A stretch of 64,000 bases of DNA from Verrucomicrobiia bacterium DG1235 (GTDB taxonomy: Bacteria > Verrucomicrobiota > Verrucomicrobiia > Opitutales > Opitutaceae): assembly GCA_000155695.1 (NCBI GenBank), contig DS990593.1, positions 164,131-228,130 of the forward strand, written 5' to 3'. A program made the position numbers and the translations under genes. The notes under the pieces are model-generated. The model was given only the letters and a program-made list of their open reading frames with translations. It was not told the DNA's origin and made no database searches. Positions 29,205-47,973 of the stretch are shown piece after piece; the stretch's first letter is position 1; every line of letters starts with the position of its first letter.

Positions 29205-30065
29205 TTAATTATAAAAAAGCGTGGACCAGCGACCTTCCTCTTTCATAGTGAGTCGATGTTTGATCCAGGCTTCTTCTGAGTCGGCGAATTTCGATAGGGC
29301 ATCGTCTAAGTTACTCTTCAGCTGTGATAATCCTGAAACGTAAACGTGTGTTTTGGGGTCCTGTAGAAGATCCCAGATTTCGGAGGCGTTTTCTGCCAGC
29401 GATTCTTCAATCTCGTCGGACTCGTTTAGGTAGGGCTTACTGCTAAGCGATTGGAAGGCTTTGAAGGTTTCTTCGTCGTAGTAGTTGGATATATCACTGT
29501 TTTTGTCATTTAGATAGAGTAGGTCCATTCCTGTTTGAGCCCCGTAGTAGAGGCGAACTGTTCCTTTCCACGATTTATTATTTTCGTAGATATGCTTCAT
29601 GAATGCGCGGTAGGGGGCGATGCCGGTACCGACGCCGATCATGACGATATTGGACGAAGGGTCATTAGGAGGGAGGAAGTGTCTACCGTAAGGGCCTGTG
29701 ATTTTCAGGGAGTCGCCAGGCTTTAGGTCGCAGAGATAGTTCGACGCGACTCCCGGGTAGCGCTCGCCGCTTACTTCATCAATATAGAAGCAACGTCTAA
29801 CACATATTTCCAATTCGATCTTTGTCTGACGACCTTCTTTTCTGGAGCTCGCGATTGAGTAGAGTCTCATGTGGTGCTTGTTGCCGAAATCGCGGGGAAC
29901 GGGGGCTAGTATTCCAATGCTTTGCCCTTCGATATATTGAAAGGTAGGGTCAGGGACAGTCAGGGTTATATGTCTCACTTCCGCTGTATTTTCATCGGTA
30001 ATACGATCCGTCTTCTCAACGGTAGCGATATAAGGGTGGCTGATGTCGTATGATGCTAGATTCAT
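29205..30065 (-). CDS. Plant-type ferredoxin--NADP(+) reductase
   Basis: 286-residue FAD protein moving electrons between ferredoxin and NADP(H). FAD site R-L-Y-S-I-A-S-S (about 87-94), then V-A-S-N-Y-L-C-D-L-K-P-G-D and I-T-G-P-Y-G-R-H-F-L-P; NADP site G-V-G-T-G-I-A-P-Y-R-A-F (about 147-158); V-Y-V-S-G-L-S-Q-L-K near the end. The tail W-S-T-L-F-Y-N keeps the FAD-stacking aromatic Tyr of chloroplast-type FNR but adds one Asn after it. It is much closer to plant/cyanobacterial FNR than to the bacterial Fpr branch. It overlaps the upstream small gene by 4 bp (ATGA) and ends the rnf operon, suggesting NADPH formation from the same ferredoxin pool that feeds Rnf. Confidence 0.9.
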   Translation of the reverse strand: MNLASYDISHPYIATVEKTDRITDENTAEVRHITLTVPDPTFQYIEGQSIGILAPVPRDFGNKHHMRLYSIASSRKEGRQTKIELEICVRRCFYIDEVSGERYPGVASNYLCDLKPGDSLKITGPYGRHFLPPNDPSSNIVMIGVGTGIAPYRAFMKHIYENNKSWKGTVRLYYGAQTGMDLLYLNDKNSDISNYYDEETFKAFQSLSSKPYLNESDEIEESLAENASEIWDLLQDPKTHVYVSGLSQLKSNLDDALSKFADSEEAWIKHRLTMKEEGRWSTLFYN

Positions 30066-30322
30066 TTGGTTTCACCTGAGGTTTTTGAATTATCTATTGT
30101 AGTGATATTTTTCTGATTCTTCGAATCGGATAGTAGCTCGCGCTTGGGACATGTGCCTTGATCCACGCACATGCAAAAGAGCGAACAGCTTAGACCTTCG
30201 TTGCGCGGTGGACCTAGGTCTGGTCTTTTAGCTGCAAAGGCGCGGCCCAACTTTTCCACGAAGATCCATCCGGATAGCAGTCCGAAGATGAGGAAAATTG
30301 AGATGATATAAGTCATAGTCAT
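30062..30322 (-). CDS. Small Cys-rich membrane protein, NqrM-like layout
   Basis: 86-residue protein with one N-terminal membrane helix (about 4-22) and a short polar tail with four cysteines in C-x3-C-x-C-x5-C order (Cys46, 50, 52, 58: C-S-L-F-C-M-C-V-D-Q-G-T-C). NqrM (DUF539), the iron-delivery factor for Na+-NQR, has the same plan: one helix followed by four Cys including a C-x-C. It lies 9 bp after rnfA, with a GGAGG site in the end of rnfA, and overlaps the FNR gene by 4 bp, so it is a genuine operon member. A role in maturing the membrane [2Fe-2S] cluster held by RnfA/RnfE is inferred. Assignment to the NqrM family is not certain. Confidence 0.75.
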   Translation of the reverse strand: MTMTYIISIFLIFGLLSGWIFVEKLGRAFAAKRPDLGPPRNEGLSCSLFCMCVDQGTCPKRELLSDSKNQKNITTIDNSKTSGETK

Positions 30323-30331
30323 GAACGTTTA

Positions 30332-30913
30332 TTATCCTCCAAGACCTGCGAAACCCATGAACGCTAACGAGAGGAGGCCGGCGAGGGTAAGGCTAAGAGC
30401 GGCTCCAGAACTGGCGCTTGGCACGTCGGCTAGGTTGAGTTTTTCTCTTAGGCCTGCCATGAGCACTAAGGCGAGGGTGAAGCCTGCTCCGGCTCCGATA
30501 CTGAAGGCTAGGCATTGGAGGAAGTTGTACTCTCGATTTGTTTGAAAAAGGGCGAGTCCTAGTATGGCGCAATTCGTGGTGATGAGCGGAAGGTAGATTC
30601 CCAGCGCTTTAAAGAGGGTAGGGCTGAATTTTTTGATGGTCATTTCGACCAGTTGTACCGCTGAAGCGATTACGGCAATGTAGCAAATCAAGCGAAGGAA
30701 CTCCAATTCGAATCGAACGAGCAATCCGTTAATCAAATAGGCGCAAGTCGAGCTTACCAGCATGACAAAAATGACGGCTAGGCCCATGTTCCAAGCGGTC
30801 TTCAGTTTGCCCGATACACCGAGGAAGGGACATAGCCCGAGAAACATCGCGAGAACGAAGTTATTTATAATGAAGGCGTTGAGGAATATGAACGTCAAAG
30901 AGTCAGGTTGCAT
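30332..30913 (-). CDS. rnfA: Rnf electron transport complex subunit RnfA
   Basis: 193-residue integral membrane subunit with six helices, homologous to NqrE. With RnfE it forms the inverted pair that holds a membrane-embedded [2Fe-2S] cluster; the conserved cysteines are Cys28 in M-F-L-G-L-C-P-F-L-G-V and Cys115 in I-T-T-N-C-A-I-L-G. N-terminal N-A-F-I-I-N-N-F-V-L is family-typical. The 5' end overlaps rnfE by 11 bp. In this operon the order is B, (PFOR), C, D, G, E, A. Confidence 0.95.
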   Translation of the reverse strand: MQPDSLTFIFLNAFIINNFVLAMFLGLCPFLGVSGKLKTAWNMGLAVIFVMLVSSTCAYLINGLLVRFELEFLRLICYIAVIASAVQLVEMTIKKFSPTLFKALGIYLPLITTNCAILGLALFQTNREYNFLQCLAFSIGAGAGFTLALVLMAGLREKLNLADVPSASSGAALSLTLAGLLSLAFMGFAGLGG

Positions 30914-31562
30914 TTTCTAAGGTCTCCTTTTGATGCTGTACCTTTTGGCGCCGGTTTTGGACGGCGCTGAATAGAAAGAGCCAGAACGCCAATACAAAGA
31001 AGCCGCCCGGCGGTAGGGCGAAGATGCCCCATGGCTGGAAGCCCGGGCCAAAGAGGTCGAAGCCGAAGAGCGAGCCGTTGCCAAGAATCTCTCGTACGAC
31101 TCCTAGGCAAAGAAGGGCAAAGGTAAATCCGACTCCCATGCCAAGGGCGTTGACCGATGCGTTTACTATATTGTTCTTAGAGGCATAGACTTCGGCTCGG
31201 CCGAGAATTATACAATTGACCACAATGAGCTGAATAAAGGCTCCGAGAGCTTTATAGAGATCAAGGCTGATGGCCTGGATGGCGTAGTCGGCAATCGTGA
31301 CGAAGGTGGCGATTATGATAATGTAGGAGGCGATTCTGACCTGTTTAGGAATCAGGAACCGGAGCGAGGAAACGAGTATGCCTGAGCAGATGAGCACGAA
31401 GGTGGTGGCCACTCCCATGGCCAAGGCGTTAATGGCGGTATTGGTTACGGCCAGTACGGGACAAAGCCCGAGTAGCATGACGAATACTGGGTTCTCTTTC
31501 CAAAGGCCTCGAAGAAAGGTGTCCCAGCTTAGGGATTCTGGAATTCTAGGATCTTTGACCAT
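30903..31562 (-). CDS. rnfE: Rnf electron transport complex subunit RnfE
   Basis: 219-residue integral membrane subunit, homologous to NqrD and partner of RnfA. Cys34 (L-L-G-L-C-P-V-L-A-V-T) and Cys117 (L-I-V-V-N-C-I-I-L-G-R-A-E) are the cluster ligands. Start taken at the ATG at 31562 (M-V-K-D-P-R-I-P-E), which shares one base with the rnfG stop; the frame is open further upstream but that part lies in rnfG and is not membrane-like. N-A-L-G-M-G-V-G-F-T-F-A-L is the C-terminal signature. Confidence 0.95.
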   Translation of the reverse strand: MVKDPRIPESLSWDTFLRGLWKENPVFVMLLGLCPVLAVTNTAINALAMGVATTFVLICSGILVSSLRFLIPKQVRIASYIIIIATFVTIADYAIQAISLDLYKALGAFIQLIVVNCIILGRAEVYASKNNIVNASVNALGMGVGFTFALLCLGVVREILGNGSLFGFDLFGPGFQPWGIFALPPGGFFVLAFWLFLFSAVQNRRQKVQHQKETLENAT

Positions 31563-32266
31563 TATTCGTCTCCTTTCTCCATGGGAATAGTCATTTGCAG
31601 CGAGTCTTTGTGCTTCGCGAGGAGGGGAAGCGTTTGGTTCGTGCTTTCTCTGAGGGCCGTGCCGATGGCCTTGGAAGTCACGGTGGCTCCCGAGATGCCG
31701 TCGATTTCCCAAGGCTTTGTCTTCTTACCGTTTTTTACGGTGACGATGTCGTTTTCCAGGGCGGTGCGATCTTGGTTGAGGCTTGCCTCTAGTTTGACGA
31801 AGTTGGCGAGAAAGTCGGGGTCGGTCTCCACTTTGTCTCCGAGGCCTGGCGTTTCCGAGCTTTGCAGCACGGTAATTCCGATGATGGATTCGTTTGATAA
31901 CGAGTATCCGTAGAGAACGGACACGATATCCTGGTATCCGCGTGCGGAGCCTTCGATGGCCAATCCGGACAGTTCACCCTTGGCGTCGTAGCCTGCGAAG
32001 ATGTTTGCTTCGGCGAAGGACTCGTCGGAGAGGAGTTCTAGGCCTGTCGTATCCAGAAAGTAGTTTTTCCGAACGCTTGCCTCGGGGAGCACGGCAAAAA
32101 CCGCTTGTTCGAGAGCTGCCTGTTTGTTGGCTTCGATCCGCGATTTAGTAAGTTGGAAGGTGAGGACGACGAAGAGTCCGGACGCGATCGAAATGGTCGC
32201 GAGTGCGATCATAAGCGAACTGCTTTTTGGAGGAGCTGGGAGGGGAGTTGAGGTGGTATCGCTCAT
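31562..32266 (-). CDS. rnfG: Rnf electron transport complex subunit RnfG (FMN-binding)
   Basis: 234 residues: one N-terminal membrane helix (about 20-40) and a periplasmic FMN-binding domain. The flavinylation motif is S-G-A-T-V-T-S (acceptor Thr about 190), modified by ApbE, which is encoded upstream in the same operon. E-T-P-G-L-G-D-K is the other conserved block of the RnfG/NqrC family. Overlaps rnfD by 4 bp at the 5' end and rnfE by one base at the 3' end. Confidence 0.95.
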   Translation of the reverse strand: MSDTTSTPLPAPPKSSSLMIALATISIASGLFVVLTFQLTKSRIEANKQAALEQAVFAVLPEASVRKNYFLDTTGLELLSDESFAEANIFAGYDAKGELSGLAIEGSARGYQDIVSVLYGYSLSNESIIGITVLQSSETPGLGDKVETDPDFLANFVKLEASLNQDRTALENDIVTVKNGKKTKPWEIDGISGATVTSKAIGTALRESTNQTLPLLAKHKDSLQMTIPMEKGDE

Positions 32267-33342
32267 TGACCTCCCTTTCGTTTAACCGCTCCGTAGATTT
32301 TCGGCTGCGTGGCGGCGCTGATGAGTGGGGAGGCTGCATTCGCGAGTAAGATCGCGTACATGACTCCTTCAGGCAGTCCGCCGAAAAGTCTTATTATCAC
32401 TGTTACGAAGCCGATGAAAGCTCCATAGATCCAGATGCCCCAAGGGGTTACGGGCGATGCCACCATATCAGTCGCCATGAATACGGCGCCAAGCATCAGA
32501 CCACCCGAGCAGAGCGTGAAAAGCGGGTCTGGATAGATCTCCGGGTTGAGCAGGTAGAAAGCTCCGGAGGTTGCGGCTGCGGTGAGAAGGACGCTGGCCG
32601 TAATGCGCCAGTTCATCATTCTCCGCATGACGAGGTAGGCGCCGCAAAGCAGTATCAGCAAGGCGGAGGTTTCGCCAGAGGATCCGGCAGTCGTTCCCAA
32701 GAGCATCTGTATCGAATCCGTGGGTACCTGCTCAAATTTCATAAGGGCGAGCGGGGTCGCTCCGGCGAATCCGTCTATCGCGTTTTCGGCTACCCAGTCT
32801 GCGGTCGGTATCGGCCTGAGGAAGGGGAGAGTGAGCGAGGACGGTATGAATTCCGTGAATCGATTTTCTGAGAGATAGGGCACCCATGTGGTCATGGGTA
32901 CGGTGAAAGCGGCTTGAGCGAAGGCGCGACCGACGAGCGCGGGATTCATGACATTGTAGCCCAGTCCGCCAAAGAACAGCTTCCCTACGGCGACTCCTAC
33001 GATGGAGGCGACGGCAGCCATCCAGAGAGGGAATCCAGGCGGAAGGGTGAGGGCGAGAAGTAGTCCCGTGATCACTACGCTCCAGTCATTCGTAGTTGAA
33101 GGCTTGGAGGAGCAAAGGCAGACGAAATGTTCGGTCAGCAAGCAAGCGCCGACGCAGACAATAACCAACGCCAAGACACTGATGCCAAATTGGTAGACGG
33201 AGAACATGCATATTGGCAGCAAGGCGTAGACGACGTTGCGCATAATCACCTCTACGGAAGCGCTTGGCCGCAGATAGGGAGAAGTGTGCAGCTGCACGTT
33301 TAGCGTCTCTTGGGAGGGAGATCTGGATGCAGATTTGTTCAT
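32263..33342 (-). CDS. rnfD: Rnf electron transport complex subunit RnfD
   Basis: 359-residue integral membrane subunit homologous to NqrB, carrying a covalent FMN. S-P-Y-L-R-P-S-A-S-V is the N-terminal signature. The flavinylation site is G-A-T-P-L-A-L-M-K (Thr about 193), and G-G-L-G-Y-N-V-M-N-P-A-L-V-G-R-A-F and T-D-M-V-A-S-P-V-T-P are family blocks. About nine helices. 4-bp overlaps with rnfC and rnfG indicate tight coupling. Confidence 0.95.
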   Translation of the reverse strand: MNKSASRSPSQETLNVQLHTSPYLRPSASVEVIMRNVVYALLPICMFSVYQFGISVLALVIVCVGACLLTEHFVCLCSSKPSTTNDWSVVITGLLLALTLPPGFPLWMAAVASIVGVAVGKLFFGGLGYNVMNPALVGRAFAQAAFTVPMTTWVPYLSENRFTEFIPSSLTLPFLRPIPTADWVAENAIDGFAGATPLALMKFEQVPTDSIQMLLGTTAGSSGETSALLILLCGAYLVMRRMMNWRITASVLLTAAATSGAFYLLNPEIYPDPLFTLCSGGLMLGAVFMATDMVASPVTPWGIWIYGAFIGFVTVIIRLFGGLPEGVMYAILLANAASPLISAATQPKIYGAVKRKGGQ

Positions 33343-34709
33343 GATTTTTTGGCTTTCTCCCTATTGGCCGATTTCGCTATTCTAAAGTATTGGACCAGCG
33401 GTATTGAAGAAGGGCATACATAGCTGCATGAGCCGCATTCGAAGCAGTCGTTCAGATGGAACGAGGATTGCATCTCATCGTATTGGCTCTTGTAGGCTAG
33501 GCGGCCCAGCTGGCAGGGATTCAGGTGCATGGGGCACGCTTCGACGCAGGCGCCGCAGCTGATGCATGGGTGGCTTGTTCGGGAGGCTTCGCTTTGGACA
33601 TCCCTCTCGGTGAGCACCAGCACGCCTCCGCAACCTTTTGTGATCGGCACGTCGAGAGACGAGATGCAGGAGCCCATCATGGGTCCGCCCAGAATGATAT
33701 GTTGAGCGCTTCCGCGAAATCCCAGTTGGTCGAGAATGAAGCGAATCGGAGTGCCGATGGGGACGTTGTAGTTTCCCTGTTTCTCGATGCCCGGTCCGGT
33801 GACGGTGACGACGCGTTCGATGACGCCTCCATTTACGGGAAGCAAGGCGCCGACTTGGGCAGTGGAGGAAACATTGAATACAGCCAGTCCTACGGATGAG
33901 GGGTATCCGCCGGAAGGGATTTCCAAATTCATCAGGGCTTTGGCCAACATCTTTTCGGCGCCCTGCGGGTATTTCGTTTTCACCGCCTGGACGGTGATCG
34001 AGCCGTCCTTTGGAAGTTTGGCGCGAATCGCTTCGACGGCATCGAGCTTGTTGTTTTCCGTCCCGATGATCGCTCGCTCCGCATTCAGGGCTTTCATGAA
34101 AATGCGGGTTCCGGCGACTAGGTCCTCTGCTTGCTCCAGCATGACACGATGGTCGGTCGTCAAGAAGGGTTCGCACTCGCAGCCGTTAATCAGAACGGTG
34201 TGAACCTTATGGTCCTTGGGCGGAGTGAGCTTAACGTGCGTTGGGAAAGCCGCGCCTCCCAGACCGACTAGGCCGGTTTCCTGCACGGCTTTGACGATTT
34301 CCTGTTGGGACATCTCGTCCACGTTACGGGACTTGAAGTAGCGGACCTCCTGGCTGTCTCCCGGGTAGACTTCGAGGATGATAGAGAGCGTGCGGGGACC
34401 TTTCGCGGTGGGCATGAGCTCGATCTCTCGAATCACGCCGGTGGCCGGAGCGTGCAGCGGCACGGACATGAATCCGTCTGCCAGGGCGATGGGCTCGCCT
34501 CGGACGACTTCCTGTCCCGGGTGCACGATCGGCTTCGAAGGCTTTCCTGCGTGCTGTGAGAGCGGGAGCACCAATCTCTTCGAGAAGGGCAGACGCTGGA
34601 TTGGCAGCCCGGCCGTGAAGTGCTTGTTTTCGGCCGGGTGGATTCCGTGGGGAAATGTACCCAGGAACCAATGACGCCAATCAAGCGTCCTCTGCAACTT
34701 GGTAAACAT
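33339..34709 (-). CDS. rnfC: Rnf electron transport complex subunit RnfC
   Basis: NAD(H)-site subunit, 456 residues. The N-terminal region resembles a Complex I NuoF-like Rossmann domain (G-L-G-G-A-A-F-P-T-H-V-K, then I-N-G-C-E-C-E-P), a SLBB-like section lies in the middle, and two [4Fe-4S] motifs are C-terminal: C-I-S-C-G-A-C-V-E-A-C-P (about 380) and C-F-E-C-G-S-C-S-Y-V-C-P (about 420). Starts at the ATG at 34709 with an AGGAG site; a TTG lies one codon before. It follows the PFOR gene by 9 bp, an unusual direct linkage of ferredoxin producer and consumer. Confidence 0.95.
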   Translation of the reverse strand: MFTKLQRTLDWRHWFLGTFPHGIHPAENKHFTAGLPIQRLPFSKRLVLPLSQHAGKPSKPIVHPGQEVVRGEPIALADGFMSVPLHAPATGVIREIELMPTAKGPRTLSIILEVYPGDSQEVRYFKSRNVDEMSQQEIVKAVQETGLVGLGGAAFPTHVKLTPPKDHKVHTVLINGCECEPFLTTDHRVMLEQAEDLVAGTRIFMKALNAERAIIGTENNKLDAVEAIRAKLPKDGSITVQAVKTKYPQGAEKMLAKALMNLEIPSGGYPSSVGLAVFNVSSTAQVGALLPVNGGVIERVVTVTGPGIEKQGNYNVPIGTPIRFILDQLGFRGSAQHIILGGPMMGSCISSLDVPITKGCGGVLVLTERDVQSEASRTSHPCISCGACVEACPMHLNPCQLGRLAYKSQYDEMQSSFHLNDCFECGSCSYVCPSSIPLVQYFRIAKSANREKAKKS

Positions 34710-34718
34710 CAAGGTCTC

Positions 34719-37700
34719 CTATTGATAGCTTTCGGCTCGCTTGATGAGCTTATCGACTCCTTTTTCGTTCGGGTTCGCTGGCGTGCCAGGGTGAATACAG
34801 TGACCGGCGCATTTTTCGGCGGCTCGGACAACGTCCTTGTAGGGGCCGCCTTTCGGATCCTTGACGTATGCCTTTTTGGACTCGTCGTAGGCGAAGATCT
34901 TCGAGTTTATGTTCGTGCACTCGTCGCAGGCCGTGCAGTCGGTCTGGTCGATCCACGCGGGCTCGAAATCGACTTTTGCGCCATTCTCCGATGGTGCGGC
35001 TGCTGTAGCGACTGACGCGTCCATGGCGAAGGTGGCGTTGCTATCGCCAGAGAGCATAGCGAGAAGTCCGCTTGCCAGCTTTTGGGCGGTCTCGCTTCTG
35101 ACCTGCTGGGCGATCGCATCTGGATCCACTTTCTTGGTGAGTCCGGCCAGTCCCTTGAGGGTGTGCCAGAAGCCAAGTCGTTCTTCGGTTGAAAGTACCA
35201 TTTCTTTGGATACGATTACGCGAATGAGGTGATCCTTCTTGTCTACGGCCCAGATGAACGGGAAGAGTCCTTCTCTGTCTTCCTCATCGAGTTTGATGAA
35301 TTCCGCAAGCGGCGTCATGTCGTCGTTCCAAGTGTCGCGCGGAGCGGTTCGGAAGTGCTTGCGGAAGCGGCCTTCCTGCACGGCGAAATCCGCGAAGGTC
35401 ATTGGCAGTTCCATCTTCAGCTTGTTGCCCTCGCCATCGAGGTAGTCCAACTGGTAGGTAGGCCAATCGGAATCGATTTCCGGATTTCCGTCGAGGTCGA
35501 TGCAATCTTCCCATGATTCTCCGGCGTCTGGATCGAATCGAAGAATTGGATACGCTCTAGACTCGAGGGCCATCTTGTTGCGATAGGCTGTGGAATCGTC
35601 GGGCACTCCATGTTCGGGCTGGCAGACAGCGTAGATATTGAAGAGAGCGGGACGGCGGGTATTGAGTCCGTCAATGAAGCCTTCGATCAAGTGCGTGTAG
35701 TTAGCGACGTTTCCTTGAAGAATGAAGGCGGTTCGATGGGCTGCGCCGATGAGTGTCATCTCCTTGCGGGTTTCGCTCTTGCCCTTCCAGACGGAAGCGT
35801 AGGGCGCCATGTCGGAGATTTGTCCGATGTATCCAGACGTACAGGCTTGGCCTCCGGTGTTGGAGTAGACCTGAGTGTCTAGCACGAAGATCTTCACGGG
35901 ACGGCCCGCCATGAGGGCGCGCGAGACGTTTTGGAAGCCAATGTCGTACATGGCTCCGTCGCCGCCCACTGCTACGACAGGAGGGCAGAGGAGGAATTCC
36001 TCGTCTGAGAATTCTTCCCAAGTGAAGCGCTTGAGGTTTTCTCTTGCCTGGACTGCGGTCTCCATTCCTTCGAGTTCCGATTCGGCAAGTCGGATGGCTT
36101 TAAATCCGTCGGCCATAGTCCGCATGTGTCCTTCGAACAATCCAAGAGCTACGGATGCGGAGTCTTGGAAGAGGTGATTCGACCAGGGGAATGGGTATGG
36201 ATTGTATGGATACGTAGATCCGTAGACCGAGGAGCATCCAGTCGAGTTGATGAAACCGAGCTTGGCGCGTCCGTTTTTGGTGGTGCCTTCTTCGTAGCGC
36301 CATTTCAGGTCCTTCAGCTGCGCTAGAAGATCGCTTGCCGTAGTGAGCCAGTCTTGGTCTAGGGGTTGTCCGGCTTTACCTTCGTCTAGGGCTTCCGCGA
36401 GTTCCGAGAGTTTGAGGTCTTTGTCTCGATGACTTGAGATCGCTTTTTGAACAGCTGACAGATCGCTTATGTCGACAGTGTCAGCGAGTTTATCTTTTAT
36501 GTGTCTCTCGAAGCGCTTGATGAGACTGTCGAGGTATTCCACGTGCTTCTTCACGCGTCGCTGCATGAGAGCAGTTATGGTGCTCGTGAAAATATGCAGG
36601 ACAGTCTTCTCGCCGCAACCGGTACAAGCTCCGTCGCCGCAAGCCATGGACTGGTAGACGGACTTGTCCATGAGCATGGTTTCGAGGGCGCCGATCTTTT
36701 CGTCGATATCCGTTATGCGAATGAAATCGGGCGGCGTGGTTGGCAGGTCGAGCCAGTATTGCCAGTTGCTTCGAAGGTCATCGAGGGTCTCGTTGGTTTG
36801 ATCGACAGCGAGGAGCGCATTGTCGTTACAGGCGTCGACGCAGAGCATACAGCCTTTGCAGGTGTATGGATTTACGGTGATGGAGTAGAGTCCACCCGAG
36901 CCTGACTGCGTTTTTTCCCTTTGGTTGTAGTACGGCTTGGTGAGGGCAAAGGAGAAGTTACCGACAGATTCGCGGAACCAATCGAATTCTCTCGTGAGCG
37001 TATCCTTATCAGCTGTTTCTTCGGCAATGGTTTCGGTAATAGCACGATTGAGCAATGGCTTAACGTCGATGCTATTGGTGTCGCCCTTGTCTTCTCCGGC
37101 GATGCTTCGTATTTTCTTTTCTACTACACGCACTGCTTTAGGCAGTAGCTTGACTTCGTGTCCGGCTTTTTGGACGCGTTTTATAGCAGTGCTGAACGCG
37201 TCGGTAATGGTGGTGGCCAGACCCGGTATGGCGCTGTCGGGACAGATAGTGAAGCAGTCGCTACAGGCGGTACATTTAGAAGGATCCCAAACGGGATGAT
37301 TGAATCGAATCTGAGACATGTCCCGATAGACGCCTGTGTTTGCCGGTATGAGGCTGAGGGCGTTGAAAGGGTCCGCTAGATTGTCATTCGGACGGCCGTT
37401 GAGGTAGAAGCTGCCTGTTTGTTCCCAGAAGCGATGGATATCAGTTTTCGGGTCATCGCTTTCCGGTATCCGCTTTAGCATGACTGGCAAGTTAGTGTTC
37501 TTGCGCGTTTCTTCGGTTTTCTCGGAGGAGCCGGTTTTATCCGTAATCTCGGTCAGTTCGTCGAATCCGCGTCGGACGACGCGCATGTTGTCCTCGACGA
37601 CACGGGCTCCTTTTGATCCGAATTTCTTGTCGACCTGGGACCTTATGGCCTTGAAGAGGGACTCTTCAGTCATGCCGGAGGATTCCATCAATGTGGATCC

Positions 37701-39635
37701 GGCGAAGAATGCGCCTTGGAAGGCGATTCCTTGCATACGGAAGCGAAGTTCCGGGTCTGTGGCCTCGTCCTGAGCTATCTTGAATGCGTCGAGGTAGAAT
37801 ACCTTGATGTCGTTTTCGACGATGTACTTTTGGGAGTGGTTCGGGAATGAATTCCAGACTTTATCAGCGGAGTCTAAGTCGCTTTGGATTATGAATACAC
37901 CGCCTTTTTTGAGTCCGAATAGCGGATTCGAATGACTGAAGACATTCGGGTCGGGCGAGAGAACGGCGTCGACGAAATAGTATTCGCAATTGATTCGGAT
38001 GTGTTCTGGCGCGGCGGAGAGGTAGTAGGTCGTGGGTTGGCCTTTCTTCTCGGATCCGTATTTCGGGTTGGCCTTGATGTCGTATCCAAGAAGGTCGTAC
38101 AAAGTGATGGCGAGATTCTTCCCGGTGGTAATGGCTCCCCAGCCGCCGACCGAGTGCATGCGAACGGTGATGGCACCCTTGGGCAGGAGGTTAGGATTTT
38201 CACTGCCTTTGACAGCGAGCTCTTTGACGTTTGGATAGTTTGCCTGAAGCGTTTGCTGGTAGATTTCGTTCTTCGGCGTAGACGGCTTTTCGTGCAGGAA
38301 GTCGATGGAAAGGTAGAAGAACTTTTTCTTGGGACCGTCATCCAGCATGTTCTCGATCGCTCCGACGACGCCTTCCGGCTGCAGGTCTCGGCTACCCATG
38401 CCGAAGCATCCAGAATAGAGGTGCGGCATGTCTTTCTGGTTCTTGAAGCTAGCGTATTCTGGATACGGCAGATCTTCGTGTTTTCCAGTCATGCCATTTT
38501 CCAGACACTTGCTAGCAGCGGCTCTGATTTCGCGAATGAGGGGCAGGTCTTCGGCGAGGGGTTGGTCGGTGCGTTCAAGTACGACTGCTCCTTTTCGGCC
38601 CTTGATAATATGGCCCACGAGATCGCCCGGGAATGGGCGAAACATCGTCATATTGACGACGCCAACCTTGAGGCCGCGGGTCTCGCGAAGGTAGTCGACG
38701 ACCGCTTCTGAGGTGCCGACGACGCTGCCCTGTCCGATGACAAGGTAGTCCGCGTCTTCGCATTTATATGTGGATACGCGATTGTAGAGGCGTCCGGTAA
38801 GTTCTCCGTATTCCGCCATGCATTGATCGGCTATTTCCCGAATATGCTCGAAGAAGTAGGGACGTTGGGCGGCTACGGATTGCATGTAGGCATCCTGGTT
38901 TTGCACCGGTCCGGAGAGCACGGGGTTGTCAACGTTCCAGAGCATGGGGACGCGCCGCCTCGTCACGCCGTAGAGCATCTTTTGAGCCGGCGTGGGACTC
39001 TGGATCATGTCATGCGGGTGGCCGAGGAATTCCGCGATGAGTTCACGCTCGGGAACCTTGAGAGTTTCGATGAGGTGGGTTGTCAAGAAGCCGTCTTGGC
39101 CGACTGCTCCAGGCGTGAGGGAGAGCTCGGCGACCTTTCGGGAAATGAGATTGAGGTCGGCCGCTTCCTGGGCGCTCTTCGCCATGACTTGGAAGAAGCC
39201 CGTATCGTCCATCAGGTGGTAGTCGTCGTGGCCGGCGTGAACGTTGAGGGAGTTTTTGGTGATTGCGCGGCAGCCGATGTTGAGGATGTAGGGGAGACGC
39301 TTCCCTACCGCTGCGTAAAGAGATTCGTGCATGTAGGCGATGCCTTGGCCTGAGGAGAAGTTGGAGGCTCGCAGTCCTGTCATCGACATCCCAGCGGTGA
39401 CTCCGGCGGCGGCGTGTTCGCCTTCAGGTTCGATGAAGATCAAGGGGTGCCCGGAAATGTTGATATGTCCTTTCGCGGTCTCCTCCGCCCAGTACTCACC
39501 CATTTGCGTGGAGGGAGTTATTGGATACGCTCCCGCTGCGTCGCTCGACTCCCGCTCGCATTGGATGACTGCAGTGTTTCCGTCCATGGCGGCGGGAATT
39601 CCGGGGTACTTAATCATTTGTTTTTGTGTAACCAT
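34719..39635 (-). CDS. Long pyruvate (2-oxoacid):ferredoxin oxidoreductase with extra C-terminal ferredoxin-like domain
   Basis: Single-chain TPP/Fe-S enzyme decarboxylating pyruvate (or another 2-oxoacid) to acyl-CoA with reduction of ferredoxin. 1638 residues, about 450 longer than typical NifJ/PFOR. In order: pyrimidine domain (A-G-A-Y-P-I-T-P-S-T near 40), domain II, gamma domain (about 480-700), a two-cluster ferredoxin domain (C-T-A-C-S-D-C-F-T-I-C-P about 788; C-K-G-C-M-L-C-V-D-A-C about 925), and the TPP domain (G-D-G-A-C-T-G-C-G-E-K-T about 1000; G-G-D-G-A-M-Y-D-I-G about 1223; Y-S-N-T-G-G-Q-A). The extra length is a wide spacer between the clusters, a helical insert (about 1030-1130) within the TPP domain, and a C-terminal one-cluster ferredoxin-like segment (C-T-A-C-D-E-C, about 1568). 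Lies between rnfB and rnfC. Confidence 0.92.
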   Translation of the reverse strand: MVTQKQMIKYPGIPAAMDGNTAVIQCERESSDAAGAYPITPSTQMGEYWAEETAKGHINISGHPLIFIEPEGEHAAAGVTAGMSMTGLRASNFSSGQGIAYMHESLYAAVGKRLPYILNIGCRAITKNSLNVHAGHDDYHLMDDTGFFQVMAKSAQEAADLNLISRKVAELSLTPGAVGQDGFLTTHLIETLKVPERELIAEFLGHPHDMIQSPTPAQKMLYGVTRRRVPMLWNVDNPVLSGPVQNQDAYMQSVAAQRPYFFEHIREIADQCMAEYGELTGRLYNRVSTYKCEDADYLVIGQGSVVGTSEAVVDYLRETRGLKVGVVNMTMFRPFPGDLVGHIIKGRKGAVVLERTDQPLAEDLPLIREIRAAASKCLENGMTGKHEDLPYPEYASFKNQKDMPHLYSGCFGMGSRDLQPEGVVGAIENMLDDGPKKKFFYLSIDFLHEKPSTPKNEIYQQTLQANYPNVKELAVKGSENPNLLPKGAITVRMHSVGGWGAITTGKNLAITLYDLLGYDIKANPKYGSEKKGQPTTYYLSAAPEHIRINCEYYFVDAVLSPDPNVFSHSNPLFGLKKGGVFIIQSDLDSADKVWNSFPNHSQKYIVENDIKVFYLDAFKIAQDEATDPELRFRMQGIAFQGAFFAGSTLMESSGMTEESLFKAIRSQVDKKFGSKGARVVEDNMRVVRRGFDELTEITDKTGSSEKTEETRKNTNLPVMLKRIPESDDPKTDIHRFWEQTGSFYLNGRPNDNLADPFNALSLIPANTGVYRDMSQIRFNHPVWDPSKCTACSDCFTICPDSAIPGLATTITDAFSTAIKRVQKAGHEVKLLPKAVRVVEKKIRSIAGEDKGDTNSIDVKPLLNRAITETIAEETADKDTLTREFDWFRESVGNFSFALTKPYYNQREKTQSGSGGLYSITVNPYTCKGCMLCVDACNDNALLAVDQTNETLDDLRSNWQYWLDLPTTPPDFIRITDIDEKIGALETMLMDKSVYQSMACGDGACTGCGEKTVLHIFTSTITALMQRRVKKHVEYLDSLIKRFERHIKDKLADTVDISDLSAVQKAISSHRDKDLKLSELAEALDEGKAGQPLDQDWLTTASDLLAQLKDLKWRYEEGTTKNGRAKLGFINSTGCSSVYGSTYPYNPYPFPWSNHLFQDSASVALGLFEGHMRTMADGFKAIRLAESELEGMETAVQARENLKRFTWEEFSDEEFLLCPPVVAVGGDGAMYDIGFQNVSRALMAGRPVKIFVLDTQVYSNTGGQACTSGYIGQISDMAPYASVWKGKSETRKEMTLIGAAHRTAFILQGNVANYTHLIEGFIDGLNTRRPALFNIYAVCQPEHGVPDDSTAYRNKMALESRAYPILRFDPDAGESWEDCIDLDGNPEIDSDWPTYQLDYLDGEGNKLKMELPMTFADFAVQEGRFRKHFRTAPRDTWNDDMTPLAEFIKLDEEDREGLFPFIWAVDKKDHLIRVIVSKEMVLSTEERLGFWHTLKGLAGLTKKVDPDAIAQQVRSETAQKLASGLLAMLSGDSNATFAMDASVATAAAPSENGAKVDFEPAWIDQTDCTACDECTNINSKIFAYDESKKAYVKDPKGGPYKDVVRAAEKCAGHCIHPGTPANPNEKGVDKLIKRAESYQ

Positions 39636-39679
39636 AGCTAAGAGCGATTGACGTTTTCGTGTTTAAATGAGCCCGTTTC

Positions 39680-40582
39680 TCAGAGGCGTTTGTTGTTGGG
39701 GTCCGACTGAATGGGCAGGGGATCCTTGCGGATAATTCTTTTGGCGGCTTGTCCTTTAAGAGTGGTAGCTTTTTCCAGCCAGACGATGGCTCCGGTCGGG
39801 CAGCGCTGTATGGCGACCGGGGATGCGAGGCTGTTCTTTGTGTAGTCTATGACTGCGAGATTCTTCTTAATGCAGATGAGTCCTTCTGGGGCGTCGGCTG
39901 CGCAACGGGCGCATCCGGTACAAGCGACTTCGCAATCCGCGAGCGCTTTCTCTCCTTCGTCCAGGTTCTTGCACGCGACCCATAATTGATTGCTGATTGG
40001 CTGGAGTGAGAACAGGTCGAGCGGGCAGGCTACCACGCAATCGTTGCAGGCGACGCATTTTTCCTCGTCCACGACGGGAAGCCCGTGCTCATCCATTTTT
40101 ATTGCATCGAAACCGCAGGAGACTTCGCAGTCGCCTAGTCCGAGGCAGCCCCATGAGCAGGCCTTGCCGCCTCCGCCTGCGACTACAGCGGCGCGGCAGG
40201 AGCCAAGGCCGTTATATTTTGCTCGCATTCTCGCGACATGATTTCCTCCGGCGCAGGCGAGACGCGCGACTTGCTTTTCTTCTTCTCCCAGTTCGACTCC
40301 GAGGTAGGAGGCGATGAACTGCGACATGTCCTTGGAATTGACGGTGCACTTGGCCGGGTTTGACTTTCCGGAGACGCAAGATTCCGCGAAGGGGCGGCAG
40401 CCCGGGTAGCCGCAGGCTCCGCAGTTTGCTTTGGGCAGCATATCCTCGACTTCGTCTATGCGAGGGTCTTCGGGGACTTGCAGCTTGCGGCTAGCGATGG
40501 CGAGTATCGCGGACAGTACAAGGCCTAGCCCTCCCATAACGATGAGAACGCTTACGACTTCGCTTGTTAGTGCTGTATTCAA
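39680..40582 (-). CDS. rnfB: Rnf electron transport complex subunit RnfB
   Basis: Ferredoxin-accepting subunit, 300 residues: an N-terminal membrane helix (about 8-30), the [4Fe-4S] domain L-P-K-A-N-C-G-A-C-G-Y-P-G-C (about 49-62), and a polyferredoxin part with C-V-A-C-N-D-C-V-V-A-C-P and C-T-G-C-A-R-C, plus C-S-W-G-C-L-G-L-G-D-C-E-V-S-C. It is the entry point for electrons from reduced ferredoxin. Here it is separated from rnfC by the PFOR gene, unlike the usual contiguous rnf order. apbE lies 24 bp upstream. Confidence 0.95.
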   Translation of the reverse strand: MNTALTSEVVSVLIVMGGLGLVLSAILAIASRKLQVPEDPRIDEVEDMLPKANCGACGYPGCRPFAESCVSGKSNPAKCTVNSKDMSQFIASYLGVELGEEEKQVARLACAGGNHVARMRAKYNGLGSCRAAVVAGGGGKACSWGCLGLGDCEVSCGFDAIKMDEHGLPVVDEEKCVACNDCVVACPLDLFSLQPISNQLWVACKNLDEGEKALADCEVACTGCARCAADAPEGLICIKKNLAVIDYTKNSLASPVAIQRCPTGAIVWLEKATTLKGQAAKRIIRKDPLPIQSDPNNKRL

Positions 40583-40606
40583 CGGAAACCTACACGGTTG
40601 AAGCTA

Positions 40607-41626
40607 TTAGGTCATGGACGGAAAGCCGGGCGTCGTTGAGACGCTGCCATCTTTGGCAACGAACAAGGCGTCTACTCCTGGCGTGGCTTGAACGAGCGTT
40701 TTGCCAGCGTCGAGACCTAGGATGAAGACGGCAGTGGAGAGGGCGTCTGCTTGCATGGCGCTCGGCGCCGCGATGGATACGCTTGAAAGTTCGAGGGGGG
40801 ACTTTCCTGTGTATGGATCGAAGAGGTGATGTGTAAGGTAGCTTTCGCCAAAGCGTGTTTCGTAGTCGCCGGATGTTGCGAGGCAGCGGTCTTTCAATTT
40901 GGCGAGCCGCAGGAATTCGTCGGTCTTGCGCGGGTGTTTGATGCCGATGGTCCAGTTTTCCTTTTGCGGAGGGCCTCCGATGGAGCCAATTTCTCCGGTA
41001 TCAACTAAAGCGCAGTGAATACCGCTATTAACTAAGGAGCGTCGAACGAGGTCCGACGCGTATCCTTGCGCAATGCCGTTAAGCGTGACTTCGGTACCCA
41101 TGCCTTGAAGCTCAATCCTAGCGGGAGAGATTGCGACGCGACGCCAGTCAACTCGCTTGAGAGCGGTTTTGATTTCAGCGTCACTGGGTTGTAGATCTTG
41201 TTTCGCTTTCTCGGAATATAGTTTCCAAAGGGGTTGTACCGTAAGGTCGAAAGCGCCCTTTGTTATCTGGGACATTAATTTAGCCTCTTGTAGCACTTCG
41301 ACCAAATAGGGGTGCGGGTCGTCGAGGTAAGCGTTTCTGTTGAGTAAGCTTAGCTGGCTGTCTGTGCGGTAGAGGCTCATCAGACTCTCGACTGTCTCGA
41401 GTTCGCTGAAGGCTTGGGAGATCGCGTTTTCCGCTATCGTAGAATCGTCGTGGTAAACGGTTAGGGTCACCTCCGCTCCCAGCGCCCAAGTCGAGCGGCT
41501 GACTCTTATCCAATTTGAATTCTGGCTTGAATATTTGGATACGTCGCGAAGCGGGTTCCATTTCCAGCCAGCCAATCCAGCTGCTGTCGTGCCGACGAGG
41601 CACAGAATGAACTTTCTGCGTTTCAT
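40607..41626 (-). CDS. apbE: FAD:protein FMN transferase
   Basis: Attaches FMN covalently to Thr of RnfD and RnfG, both encoded in the same operon. 339 residues. The N-terminus K-R-R-K-F-I-L-C-L-V-G followed by a hydrophobic stretch is a signal (Tat-like twin Arg), placing the enzyme outside the cytoplasmic membrane where its targets lie. Family motifs: D-T-G-E-I-G-S-I-G-G, G-I-A-Q-G-Y-A-S-D, H-H-L-F-D-P-Y-T-G-K-S-P, and A-M-Q-A-D-A-L-S-T-A (Mg/FAD site). Confidence 0.95.
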   Translation of the reverse strand: MKRRKFILCLVGTTAAGLAGWKWNPLRDVSKYSSQNSNWIRVSRSTWALGAEVTLTVYHDDSTIAENAISQAFSELETVESLMSLYRTDSQLSLLNRNAYLDDPHPYLVEVLQEAKLMSQITKGAFDLTVQPLWKLYSEKAKQDLQPSDAEIKTALKRVDWRRVAISPARIELQGMGTEVTLNGIAQGYASDLVRRSLVNSGIHCALVDTGEIGSIGGPPQKENWTIGIKHPRKTDEFLRLAKLKDRCLATSGDYETRFGESYLTHHLFDPYTGKSPLELSSVSIAAPSAMQADALSTAVFILGLDAGKTLVQATPGVDALFVAKDGSVSTTPGFPSMT

Positions 41627-41666
41627 GATTGGGGTAATTGTTTTTGGGGTATGGGGAAGTGTTTTA

Positions 41667-43283
41667 CTATTCTAAGCTATCCGCTGTTTTCATGCGGTGC
41701 AGCCAGAGGGCGAGGGCTGCTGAGGCGATGCATAGCGAACCTGCGACCGAGAACGCGGCAATGTAACTGCCGGTCAGGATTTTCGCGGCGTTTCCTGCGG
41801 CTATGCCTACGACTCCGGCAATGCCGTAGGAGGTGAACACCCAGCCATAGTTGGCTCCGAGGTTTTTCGCTCCGAACAAGTCTGCGGTGGCTGAGGGGAA
41901 GAGAGCGAAGGCTCCGCCATAGTTGAAGCCAACCATGGAAGCGGCGATGATCAGGGTGAGCTCGCTTTTTACGGCGCCGAGGGAAAACATGGTGATCGCC
42001 TGAAGAGTGAACATGGCGACGAATGTAGTGGTTCGACCGATACGGTCGCTAATGAAGCCCCAGACGATCCGGCCCAAGGCGTTGAAGATCGCGAGCACGC
42101 CCACGGCGCTGGCTCCTTTGATCATGAGGGCGGCAGTGTCCGAATCAGTGAGGATGGAGCCCGCTTCCTGCGCCGCTGTAACGAGTTGCTCACCCGCGAA
42201 TAGTTTCATGATTCCGATGACTCCGAGGCCAGCGACGGACGCGCTGAAAAACATAGTCCAGAGAACGTAGAATGCCGGTTGGCGAAGCGTTTGTTGCCAG
42301 GTGGTTTCGCTGACGAGCGCAGGTTTGGTTTCGGTGTCTGGCGGGTTTCGCAAGAGCAATGCTCCAAGGGATATGCCGACTAAACAGACGAGTCCGTGCA
42401 CGACGAAGAAACGGGTGATTCCGAATTCTCCGATGAAGCCGAGCGCTCCCCATTTCTGGCTGAAGAGATAGGCCCCGAATCCGAATCCCGCGACCGCCAG
42501 GCCGCTTACAAGTCCCTTGTGGTTTGGGAACCACTTAACGAGAGCGGCGATAGGGCAAACGTACGCGAAGCCTACGCCCGCTCCTGAAAGGAAACCGACT
42601 GTTCCCCAGAGAAGAAACAGTCGATCCAGTTCTTGGAATTTGCCTACGTATTGTTCGGCTAGGGAAACGCTAGCAACAACCACAATGGTTATAATGGCGA
42701 GAGGGGCGTACTTCACCATGGCGTGCTTCTCTTGATCAATATCATGGAAGAAGGCGTGGAAAAGCATAAGAGCCAGAAGAGCGACGAGCCCGGCGAATAG
42801 AGAGTGGGCGATGAAGAATACGATGGGGCTATTCATCAAGCCCGCCACGAGGAAACCACCTCCCATCAGAGTGGCGCCAATGATGGCAGGGAAGCGGGGA
42901 CCTTTTATATCTTGGATGCGTCCCGCAAAAACCATGACTCCCGCGAAACTGAGCACGCAGATGGAAAACGCGTATTTGAGATAGCCTTGCTGGATTGCTC
43001 GTTCGCGATCGATGGCAGCGTCGTCGGCGACTACCTTCATCTCGGAAATATCAATGCCTTGGGCGAGCAGGCTAGCTTGTTGTGCTTCTGTTATCGTTTC
43101 TGGAAATATGCGTGAAGAGAGCGGCTCCCAGAAAATGCTGTAGCCATAGATGGTGCCGAGAATCAGCTGTACGATGATCGCTCCCAGCAATACGAGTGAT
43201 CTGGAGGTGACGGAAAGACTGCGTCCTGTATGCCCGTTCGAATCCACATCAATGAGTTTGGGCAACAAGGTGATTAGCAGCAA
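41667..43283 (-). CDS. OFA-family MFS transporter (oxalate/formate antiporter family)
   Basis: Twelve-helix MFS carrier of the OFA family. About 538 residues, longer than usual owing to a periplasmic loop after helix 1 (about 60-100). Signatures: L-G-T-I-Y-G-Y-S-I-F-W in helix 1, W-F-P-N-H-K-G-L-V-S-G-L-A-V-A-G-F-G-F-G-A, and N-Y-G-G-A-F-A-L-F-P-S-A-T-A-D-L-F-G. Start uncertain: TTG at 43283, or GTG at 43247; no ATG is nearby. Members carry small carboxylates, and E. coli YhjX of this family is pyruvate-induced. With apbE-rnf-PFOR downstream after 40 bp, a 2-oxoacid such as pyruvate is a reasonable but unproven substrate. Confidence 0.88.
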   Translation of the reverse strand: MLLITLLPKLIDVDSNGHTGRSLSVTSRSLVLLGAIIVQLILGTIYGYSIFWEPLSSRIFPETITEAQQASLLAQGIDISEMKVVADDAAIDRERAIQQGYLKYAFSICVLSFAGVMVFAGRIQDIKGPRFPAIIGATLMGGGFLVAGLMNSPIVFFIAHSLFAGLVALLALMLFHAFFHDIDQEKHAMVKYAPLAIITIVVVASVSLAEQYVGKFQELDRLFLLWGTVGFLSGAGVGFAYVCPIAALVKWFPNHKGLVSGLAVAGFGFGAYLFSQKWGALGFIGEFGITRFFVVHGLVCLVGISLGALLLRNPPDTETKPALVSETTWQQTLRQPAFYVLWTMFFSASVAGLGVIGIMKLFAGEQLVTAAQEAGSILTDSDTAALMIKGASAVGVLAIFNALGRIVWGFISDRIGRTTTFVAMFTLQAITMFSLGAVKSELTLIIAASMVGFNYGGAFALFPSATADLFGAKNLGANYGWVFTSYGIAGVVGIAAGNAAKILTGSYIAAFSVAGSLCIASAALALWLHRMKTADSLE

Positions 43284-45805: not shown

Positions 45806-46098
45806 GTGGGAGCTGGTCCGTGCGTTCAATGAAACTAATATGGTACATTAGCGTGATCGCGGAATAAGCCCATCGCTTGAGAAATGAAAAATGCTTCGCT
45901 TTTTTTGCCCCGATTTTTACAATGATCTCGGGCGCTTCCGATCAGGAACCTGAGGAAACGACCCTAAGGAATGAAAGCATTCAGGAGTCCGTCGGGATTC
46001 TGACCTGTATCGATCCGATAGATACAGATTTGGGGTTTTATGCTCCTGTTTTTGTAAGGAATTTGAAGTAAGGTGAAGTAGTCCTCGCCTTCTCAGTG
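45806..46098. other. Intergenic region between allophanate hydrolase and chemoreceptor
   Basis: About 290 bp without a supportable gene. It holds an inverted repeat CTGTATC (46005-46011) / GATACAG (46021-46027), possibly ending the allophanate hydrolase transcript, and must carry the promoter of the chemoreceptor gene. Confidence 0.4.
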
Positions 46099-47892: not shown

Positions 47893-47906
47893 GGATTTTT
47901 TTTGCC

Positions 47907-47973
47907 CACGAATCACACGAATACGCACGAATCGAAAATTATATGTATAAGATCTTGTTCGTGTGGATTCGTG
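47907..47973. repeat. CACGAAT intergenic inverted-repeat element
   Basis: Three CACGAAT copies (47907, 47916, 47926) face two inverted copies (GTTCGTG at 47957-47963, ATTCGTG at 47967-47973) across an AT-rich spacer, filling the gap between carboxylase and allophanate hydrolase. It can fold as a hairpin in the transcript. Its make-up resembles the element at 51600-51723. Confidence 0.75.

Follow-up and report, generated by a model that had tools for sequence, protein, structure and literature searches.

A pyruvate:ferredoxin oxidoreductase with its own ferredoxin domain, encoded within a conserved rnf operon of Verrucomicrobiia bacterium DG1235

The stretch of DNA considered here, henceforth the window, comprises 64,000 nucleotides of the genome of Verrucomicrobiia bacterium DG1235 (G000:C5:164131-228130). 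It harbours on its minus strand, from position 43283 down to position 29205, an array of eleven genes that an earlier note, made from the sequence alone, had placed at these coordinates. Read from 5′ to 3′, they code for an MFS transporter, the flavin transferase ApbE, RnfB, a pyruvate:ferredoxin oxidoreductase (PFOR), RnfC, RnfD, RnfG, RnfE, RnfA, a small cysteine-rich protein and a plant-type ferredoxin-NAD(P) reductase (FNR). Profile searches return the expected families, the small protein being the one without a family match. The junctions confirm the tight one-strand array, with gaps of 44 bp or less and overlaps, that the note had described: 40 bp separate the transporter gene from apbE, 24 bp apbE from rnfB, 44 bp (the largest gap) rnfB from the PFOR gene and 6 bp the latter from rnfC; rnfC and rnfD then overlap by 4 bp, rnfD and rnfG by 4, rnfG and rnfE by 1, rnfE and rnfA by 11, while the small open reading frame follows rnfA after 9 bp and overlaps the FNR gene by 4. 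Seven of the ten junctions are overlaps or gaps of at most 9 bp, and three are 4-bp overlaps.

A PFOR gene conserved within rnf operons

All six Rnf subunits are encoded at this one locus, A, B, C, D and E scoring above their NCBIfam subfamily cut-offs and G slightly below its own (Table 1). The whole genome contains two matches to PF02508, both in the operon, which by this test is therefore the genome's sole rnf or nqr set. How general is the insertion of a PFOR gene? A scan of named genomes with a PFOR alignment gave at least 595 candidate stretches, at least 584 of which were confirmed; the counts that follow use the best 80 (L058-L137), each count being made on those loci that have enough flanking sequence. 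These loci were picked on PFOR similarity alone, so that adjacency to rnf genes was not built into the choice and the arrangement is more than chance. Upstream of the PFOR gene we find rnfB in 67/68 loci, and downstream rnfC in 67/67, rnfD in 57/57 and rnfG, rnfE and rnfA in 55/57 each. The synteny check proposed beforehand thus comes out in favour of a conserved gene order, and the absence of conservation in relatives, named at the time as what would speak against it, is not the case. The small protein (42/57) and an FNR after the module (35/57) are less constant. The gap between the PFOR gene and rnfC ranges from -6 to 1368 bp, with a median of 123, so that the tight spacing seen in the window is not general.

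The 80 loci are widely spread. Gammaproteobacteria account for 37, Verrucomicrobiota and other PVC lineages for 14, Rhodocyclales or other Betaproteobacteria for 11, Acidobacteriota for seven and Hydrogenedentota for five; the remaining six bear single taxon labels, which on metagenome-assembled genomes (MAGs) may reflect mis-binning. The module is also found, with about 50% identity, on plasmid records of Persicobacter and Gemmatirosa, which extends it to Bacteroidota and Gemmatimonadota. Among 387 genomes searched within the phylum, 12 besides the window's have PFOR relatives of at least 65% identity, two of these being truncated at contig ends and none of the 12 belonging to the window's family. 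The module PFOR is present in 3/8 genomes of the genus, the window's own counted, and in 3/398 genomes of a Pseudomonadota sample, its centre genome counted.

The trees tell a similar story. With 55 sequences, the PFOR tree and that of RnfBCD have 31/52 splits in common, against a mean of 0.05 with shuffled labels, and 27/37 supported PFOR splits are recovered in the RnfBCD tree. We conclude that rnfB-PFOR-rnfCDGEA is a conserved module and that its PFOR is largely co-inherited with rnf; the gene order and the shared trees bear out the idea that the ferredoxin-reducing enzyme and the ion pump that consumes its product go together. Several controls are in keeping with this. No PFOR match turned up within the 14.7 kb covered in any of seven rnf operons taken from plasmid records, in line with the earlier statement that an Rnf operon as a rule codes for nothing but the complex. 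An rnf match was likewise absent from nine shorter or partial PFOR loci, with a flank of only about 1.5 kb, and from the 20 kb around two other 2-oxoacid oxidoreductase loci in the window's genome.

A few variants deserve a separate mention. In a Calditrichales MAG a second rnfCDGEA set lies upstream of the module (L129:430-4845), while in an Acidobacteria MAG (L088) the order is PFOR-rnfC-D-G-FNR, with no rnfE or rnfA match in between. A LysR-type regulator gene stands on the opposite strand upstream of rnfB in L071, L072, L076, L085, L091 and others, mostly gammaproteobacterial loci.

The ferredoxin tail and the missing RnfB cluster

Two features, absent from the earlier interpretation, set the proteins of the module apart. 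The first is in PFOR. The window protein has the POR_N, PFOR_II, POR and TPP domains and the ligands of three [4Fe-4S] clusters, which places it in the superfamily, on a long and divergent branch: it scores 397.2 bits, below the curated TIGR02176 equivalog cut-off of 911.35, and its best solved matches are 6cin, 7plm and 1b0p. In an alignment of 11 sequences T40, E73, R123 and N1259 are invariant, as are C788/791/794/798, C926/929/932/936, C1004, C1007, C1134 and C1338; we take the former to be residues of the active site and the cysteines to be cluster ligands. At its C-terminus the protein continues into a Fer4_13 domain that also matches ferredoxin I (1dax, 1.5e-7). The four cysteines of this tail are invariant in 11/11 and 18/18 sequences (two overlapping sets), and a CxxCxxC...EKC tail terminates 80/80 PFORs of the module clade, 62 by strict pattern and 18 by reading the sequences. 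The 41 residues ahead of it are rich in alanine (27.5%) and glycine (17.2%), against 9.7% and 8.0% over the whole protein. A second PFOR clade, at about 38% identity, came out of the phylum search; the tail is absent there in 10/10 sequences, and no rnf match was found within about 20 kb around each. The window's genome has a member of this second clade as well (L046, G000:C6:743730-748013; about 1548 amino acids, no tail, no rnf match nearby), and that clade has a match, one of them partial, in all 8 genus genomes searched.

The second feature is a loss. By sequence comparison the module's RnfB belongs with the long type known from Clostridium tetanomorphum and Acetobacterium woodii. The cysteines at positions 219, 238, 241 and 244 of the C. 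tetanomorphum segment (chain numbers are higher by 7) are lost, whereas those at 209, 212, 215 and 248 are kept. This pattern of four lost and four kept cysteines in the C-terminal dicluster is identical in 71/71 RnfBs, namely the 76 sequences from the window and the 80 loci minus five shorter than 255 amino acids; once those of Persicobacter and Gemmatirosa and three orthologues whose genes lie apart from PFOR are added, the loss is found in 76/76. In other rnf operons, 9/10 RnfBs have the full eight cysteines, and the exception (L144) keeps one of the four. The lost cysteines are the ligands of a single cluster, if we assume the usual dicluster pattern, so the full cluster set of a long-type RnfB is not present in the module.

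Which cluster went missing is suggested by the known complexes. In C. tetanomorphum electrons enter at RnfB-6, the cluster farthest from the membrane, and then pass through 5, 4, 3, 2 and 1, while cluster 4 draws two cysteines from the segment that links the two ferredoxin parts (PMC9588780). In A. woodii, ferredoxin docking is placed near clusters B1-B2 of RnfB (PMC11889175). One of the two joining-segment cysteines of cluster 4 sits four residues before a kept ligand, which suggests that the kept cluster is number 5 and the lost one number 6. The lost cluster is therefore probably RnfB-6, the outermost one, where ferredoxin delivers its electrons. Beyond this entry the electron chain looks intact, as judged from cofactor motifs. 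The window has SGAT in RnfG, GATP in RnfD and NC in both RnfA and RnfE; across loci, shorter and cut sequences being dropped, the two CxxCxxCxxxC of RnfC are found in 67/68, the RnfG pattern in 56/63, GAT of RnfD in 58/64, and NC in 60/61 RnfA and 38/38 RnfE.

The simplest reading of a tail on one protein and a missing cluster on the other is that the tethered ferredoxin supplies the entry cluster of RnfB. The operon would then code for an Rnf complex wired directly to an electron partner of its own, the net activity being that of a reversible, ion-motive pyruvate:NAD+ oxidoreductase, a proposal that we consider rather more probable than its contrary. PFOR would convert pyruvate and coenzyme A (CoA) into acetyl-CoA and CO2, the electrons travelling by way of the three [4Fe-4S] clusters inside the enzyme to a fourth one, on the ferredoxin domain. 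The Ala/Gly-rich linker would let that domain shuttle between the distal cluster of PFOR and RnfB, docking at the gap left by one C-terminal cluster (probably the outermost) and thus feed the RnfB chain directly. From there electrons would proceed via RnfA/E, G and D to RnfC and NAD+, while Na+ or H+ is pumped. In reverse, the assembly would be a pyruvate synthase powered by NADH and the ion gradient.

One may go further, in a version that we hold a little less probable than not: PFOR would be the true electron-input subunit of a membrane supercomplex, the entry cluster having moved from RnfB to the tethered domain, which interconverts pyruvate, CoA and NAD+ with acetyl-CoA, CO2 and NADH at the expense or to the benefit of an ion gradient, and which in purple sulfur and other sulfur-oxidising bacteria would act as an ion-gradient-driven pyruvate synthase. 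If true, this would explain how cells that cannot photoreduce ferredoxin directly, such as purple sulfur bacteria and other sulfur oxidisers, carboxylate acetyl-CoA. Rnf is usually taken to use soluble ferredoxin; a dehydrogenase with a ferredoxin of its own, facing an RnfB that lacks a cluster, would make a dedicated, channelled entry to the pump, and would couple a single carbon reaction to the ion gradient both ways. Such an entry makes two questions testable: whether an Rnf can be hard-wired to one enzyme, and how reductant for pyruvate synthesis is provided in purple and colourless sulfur bacteria. In evolutionary terms, what looks like the exchange of a cluster between two proteins leaves a clear signature that can be followed.

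Several observations weigh against this picture. The number of RnfB clusters varies among known complexes (PMC9588780, PMC11889175); for this same reason an incomplete set does not bar the module from the Rnf family, cluster number being no defining feature. The choice of RnfB-6 rather than RnfB-5 comes from ligand spacing, not from coordinates. A short RnfB, 8ahx (174 amino acids), aligns with the window protein up to about residue 104 only. The second RnfB of one module genome, from another rnf set (L144, G023:C8:99086-99799), is devoid of three of the four cysteines, with no PFOR match in the 3.7 kb examined, so that such a loss also occurs outside the module. Three genomes have their rnfB away from the module, and in Persicobacter it comes after the FNR gene, which indicates that strict rnfB-PFOR adjacency can be dispensed with. 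The Rnf tree contradicts five of the supported PFOR splits, and the counts of conservation cover the best 80 of the confirmed candidates. The tethered ferredoxin, finally, could serve the FNR of the operon or other acceptors. We also considered that PFOR replaces RnfB in L041, L043 and L067, where rnfB is absent from the locus; this is ruled out by a 68-69% identical rnfB elsewhere in each genome.

The best of the alternatives is a loose functional neighbourhood, where the shared operon ensures co-expression only and the tail reduces a soluble ferredoxin pool for Rnf, FNR and others, in a forward, fermentative metabolism. An FNR placed after the module in more than half of the loci would be a competitor for these electrons, the rnfB gene is in some genomes found at another site, and the authors who described the Solemya velum symbiont take pyruvate as electron donor for Rnf (PMC4287430). 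Yet loss of the four RnfB cysteines and presence of the PFOR tail accompany the arrangement throughout (76/76 and 80/80), and co-expression alone explains neither; we consider this alternative fairly unlikely, with perhaps one chance in a handful or slightly better.

Direction of the reaction and accessory genes

The earlier note had seen the operon as turning a 2-oxoacid into acyl-CoA. This is incomplete in that it assumes a single direction, while neighbouring genes in some taxa point to pyruvate synthesis. A phosphoenolpyruvate (PEP) synthase gene follows the module in seven gammaproteobacterial loci (L087, L098, L106, L118, L123, L127 and L113, the last cut by a contig end). Four of the proteins, tested with TIGR01418, score 1171-1199 bits, and the other three were recognized by tblastn; a PEP synthase regulator gene comes next in five of the seven, and no FNR was found in the six full loci. 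Pyruvate phosphate dikinase (PPDK) is encoded after the module in L071, and a fragment of its gene is found a long way upstream in L126. Since PEP synthase works in the direction of PEP, the gammaproteobacteria with that gene more likely make pyruvate than burn it, and a reverse use of the module is likely there. This must be set against its limited extent: among the 48/80 named loci with at least 22 kb of sequence, PEP synthase is present in six and absent from 42.

PFOR itself is reversible, and the direction of the whole would thus depend on the host, as Rnf too can work both ways (PMC9588780, PMC12174285). In the Kentron symbiont a highly expressed PFOR, possibly of this clade, was read as carboxylating acetyl-CoA (PMC6593406). 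In the Riftia symbiont one PFOR isoform, possibly the module PFOR, rises at low oxygen together with ppdk and glycogen breakdown (PMC11636981), which counts against a single direction. The genome of the window has four COX1 matches and a NifH, and the lactate-type transporter gene upstream makes us lean, weakly, towards the oxidative direction in this organism.

Could the substrate be another 2-oxoacid, 2-oxoglutarate or a branched-chain one, so that the module has nothing to do with pyruvate? The divergence of the protein (397 bits against 911 for the curated family) would allow for it. The best solved relatives are all pyruvate enzymes, however, the presumed active-site Thr, Glu, Arg and Asn are invariant, and PEP synthase and PPDK are neighbours in some loci, which together make this improbable.

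Less probable still is the view that the module mainly supplies low-potential electrons to nitrogenase, with Rnf in reverse. Rnf serves nitrogenase in Azotobacter (PMC12174285) and there is a true NifH in the genome, but NifH is above cut-off in 12/43 module genomes against 8/37 without the module (five from the genus, 17 from the family and 15 from Pseudomonadota), no clear association, which leads us to reject it as a general role. These 43 are part of the module genomes found, some being incomplete MAGs, and one more (G093) has a partial NifH match under the cut-off. The nifH region of the window's genome (G000:C6:5277527-5278342 and C6:5265104-5265655) has, at 10-12 kb, another PFOR gene of about canonical length (an open frame of 1280 amino acids), whose product could be NifJ and which also speaks against a nitrogenase role of the module. 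With the four COX1 matches, the organism may be a facultative diazotroph.

The transporter, put forward as a candidate substrate importer, does not belong to the module: no homologue is found upstream on the same strand in any of the 58 named loci with at least 5 kb of flank (0/58), nor in the same-genus loci (0/2). The apbE gene is upstream on the same strand in 4/58 loci and on the opposite strand in 5/58, and occupies the same place in the Verrucomicrobiota relatives L058, L059, L060, L070, L174 and L175; ApbE flavinylates RnfD and RnfG (PMC12174285).

The small protein has one hydrophobic stretch (in the window copy) and three to five cysteines in 47 sequences. Its layout, one transmembrane helix and then CG...CxC...C, resembles that of NqrM, and it may be a candidate NqrM-like maturation factor for the [2Fe-2S] cluster of RnfA/E. 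Identification with NqrM proper would be tentative: PF04400 has no match at E 5 in the window protein or in the matched stretches of seven relatives, and hhalign gives a probability of 78% over only 14 columns and of 55% globally, the likeness being suggestive only.

As for the NADP-linked consumer of the earlier note, a plant-type FNR is indeed there, and aligns well with the cyanobacterial enzyme; its NADP specificity is doubtful. The R-x-Y of the site for the 2′-phosphate of NADP is absent from the window FNR and from 37 operon FNRs. Of the other half of that site, S-R, an arginine lies near the first position in 33/37 operon FNRs, and a lysine in the window FNR.

Table 1. Features of the operon in the window, in order of transcription
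Feature	Positions	Strand	Evidence
OFA-family MFS transporter, nearest NCBIfam entry SfMCT (L-lactate MFS transporter)	41667..43283	-	SfMCT 307.9 bits (cut-off 320); TIGR00890 179.9 (cut-off 374.85)
ApbE flavin transferase	40607..41626	-	PF02424 5.1e-68
RnfB, A. woodii/C. tetanomorphum-type polyferredoxin without the four ligands of one [4Fe-4S] cluster of the C-terminal dicluster	39680..40582	-	NCBIfam and alignment
PFOR of 1638 amino acids, with C-terminal linker and tethered [4Fe-4S] ferredoxin	34719..39635	-	domains, structure matches, alignments
PFOR ferredoxin tail, about residues 1558-1638, ligands C1567, C1570, C1573, C1609	34722..34964	-	Fer4_13 9.4e-7 (residues 1562-1615); 1dax match
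RnfC, NADH/FMN and 2x[4Fe-4S] subunit	33339..34712	-	TIGR01945 493 bits (cut-off 246)
RnfD	32263..33342	-	TIGR01946 291 bits (cut-off 207)
RnfG, SGAT flavinylation motif	31562..32266	-	TIGR01947 99.7 bits, slightly below cut-off 102
RnfE, 219 amino acids	30903..31562	-	NCBIfam match; start revised
RnfA	30332..30913	-	TIGR01943 238 bits (cut-off 229)
Small one-helix Cys-motif protein	30062..30322	-	after rnfA in most module loci
Plant-type ferredoxin-NAD(P) reductase, no ferredoxin domain of its own, R-x-Y of NADP site absent	29205..30065	-	family match and alignment

The rnfE frame as first listed (30903-31712, from a TTG) is too long, and the ATG at 31562 is the likely start. Beyond the FNR gene, on the downstream side, the first gene that could be identified is ftsZ, which lies on the opposite strand. 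On the upstream side comes a DUF2490 gene, with a hairpin and its T-run (43481-43457) between it and the transporter gene; further upstream are encoded a methyl-accepting chemotaxis protein (44249-45829) and an allophanate hydrolase (46099-47928). On an internal promoter and terminator, the other point named beforehand as a refutation, a consensus scan for signals had little to say: it gave 3 promoter-like sites where 9.0 are expected and 25 terminator-like ones where 20.2 are; on the minus strand inside the array it gave two weak terminator-like matches, in apbE (41025) and rnfE (31021), and zero promoters. A search for known RNA elements in the operon and its leader gave none at E 0.1.

Earlier accounts and known systems

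The gene order itself is already in print for one symbiont. In the rnf2 cluster of the Solemya velum symbiont, PFOR genes are placed between rnfB2 and rnfC2, and pyruvate was suggested as the electron donor (PMC4287430, 2014). The arrangement is stated there only, and not in the available parts of PMC11636981, PMC12174285, PMC6315080, PMC6593406, PMC4853749, PMC9588780, PMC11889175, PMC5317091 or PMC3534657. In the open-access literature, as far as its text was accessible, we found neither the fused ferredoxin nor the lost RnfB cluster nor the module's spread described; the 2011 Rnf review (Biegel et al.) was not covered, and an earlier notice is possible.

The comparison with Solemya, which follows the published description and not the sequence, gives the same position of PFOR between rnfB and rnfC; that account deals with one organism and its available sections do not mention a fused ferredoxin, a lost RnfB cluster, a wider spread or a reverse direction (PMC4287430). 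The Rnf complexes of C. tetanomorphum and A. woodii have in common with the module the six subunits and the long polyferredoxin RnfB, but their RnfB keeps the cluster that is lost here. To our knowledge their rnf operons are without PFOR. With the homodimeric PFORs 6cin and 1b0p, which we take to be those of Moorella and Desulfovibrio, the window protein shares core domains and cluster ligands; it is 400-470 residues longer, with insertions and a ferredoxin borne by its C-terminal linker. A further parallel is the pyruvate:NADP+ oxidoreductase of Euglena and Cryptosporidium, a PFOR fused to an electron acceptor module. In both cases PFOR is joined to the part that receives its electrons; in those eukaryotes this part is a flavoprotein reductase, whereas in the module it is a ferredoxin, and an ion pump would stand between it and the final acceptor.

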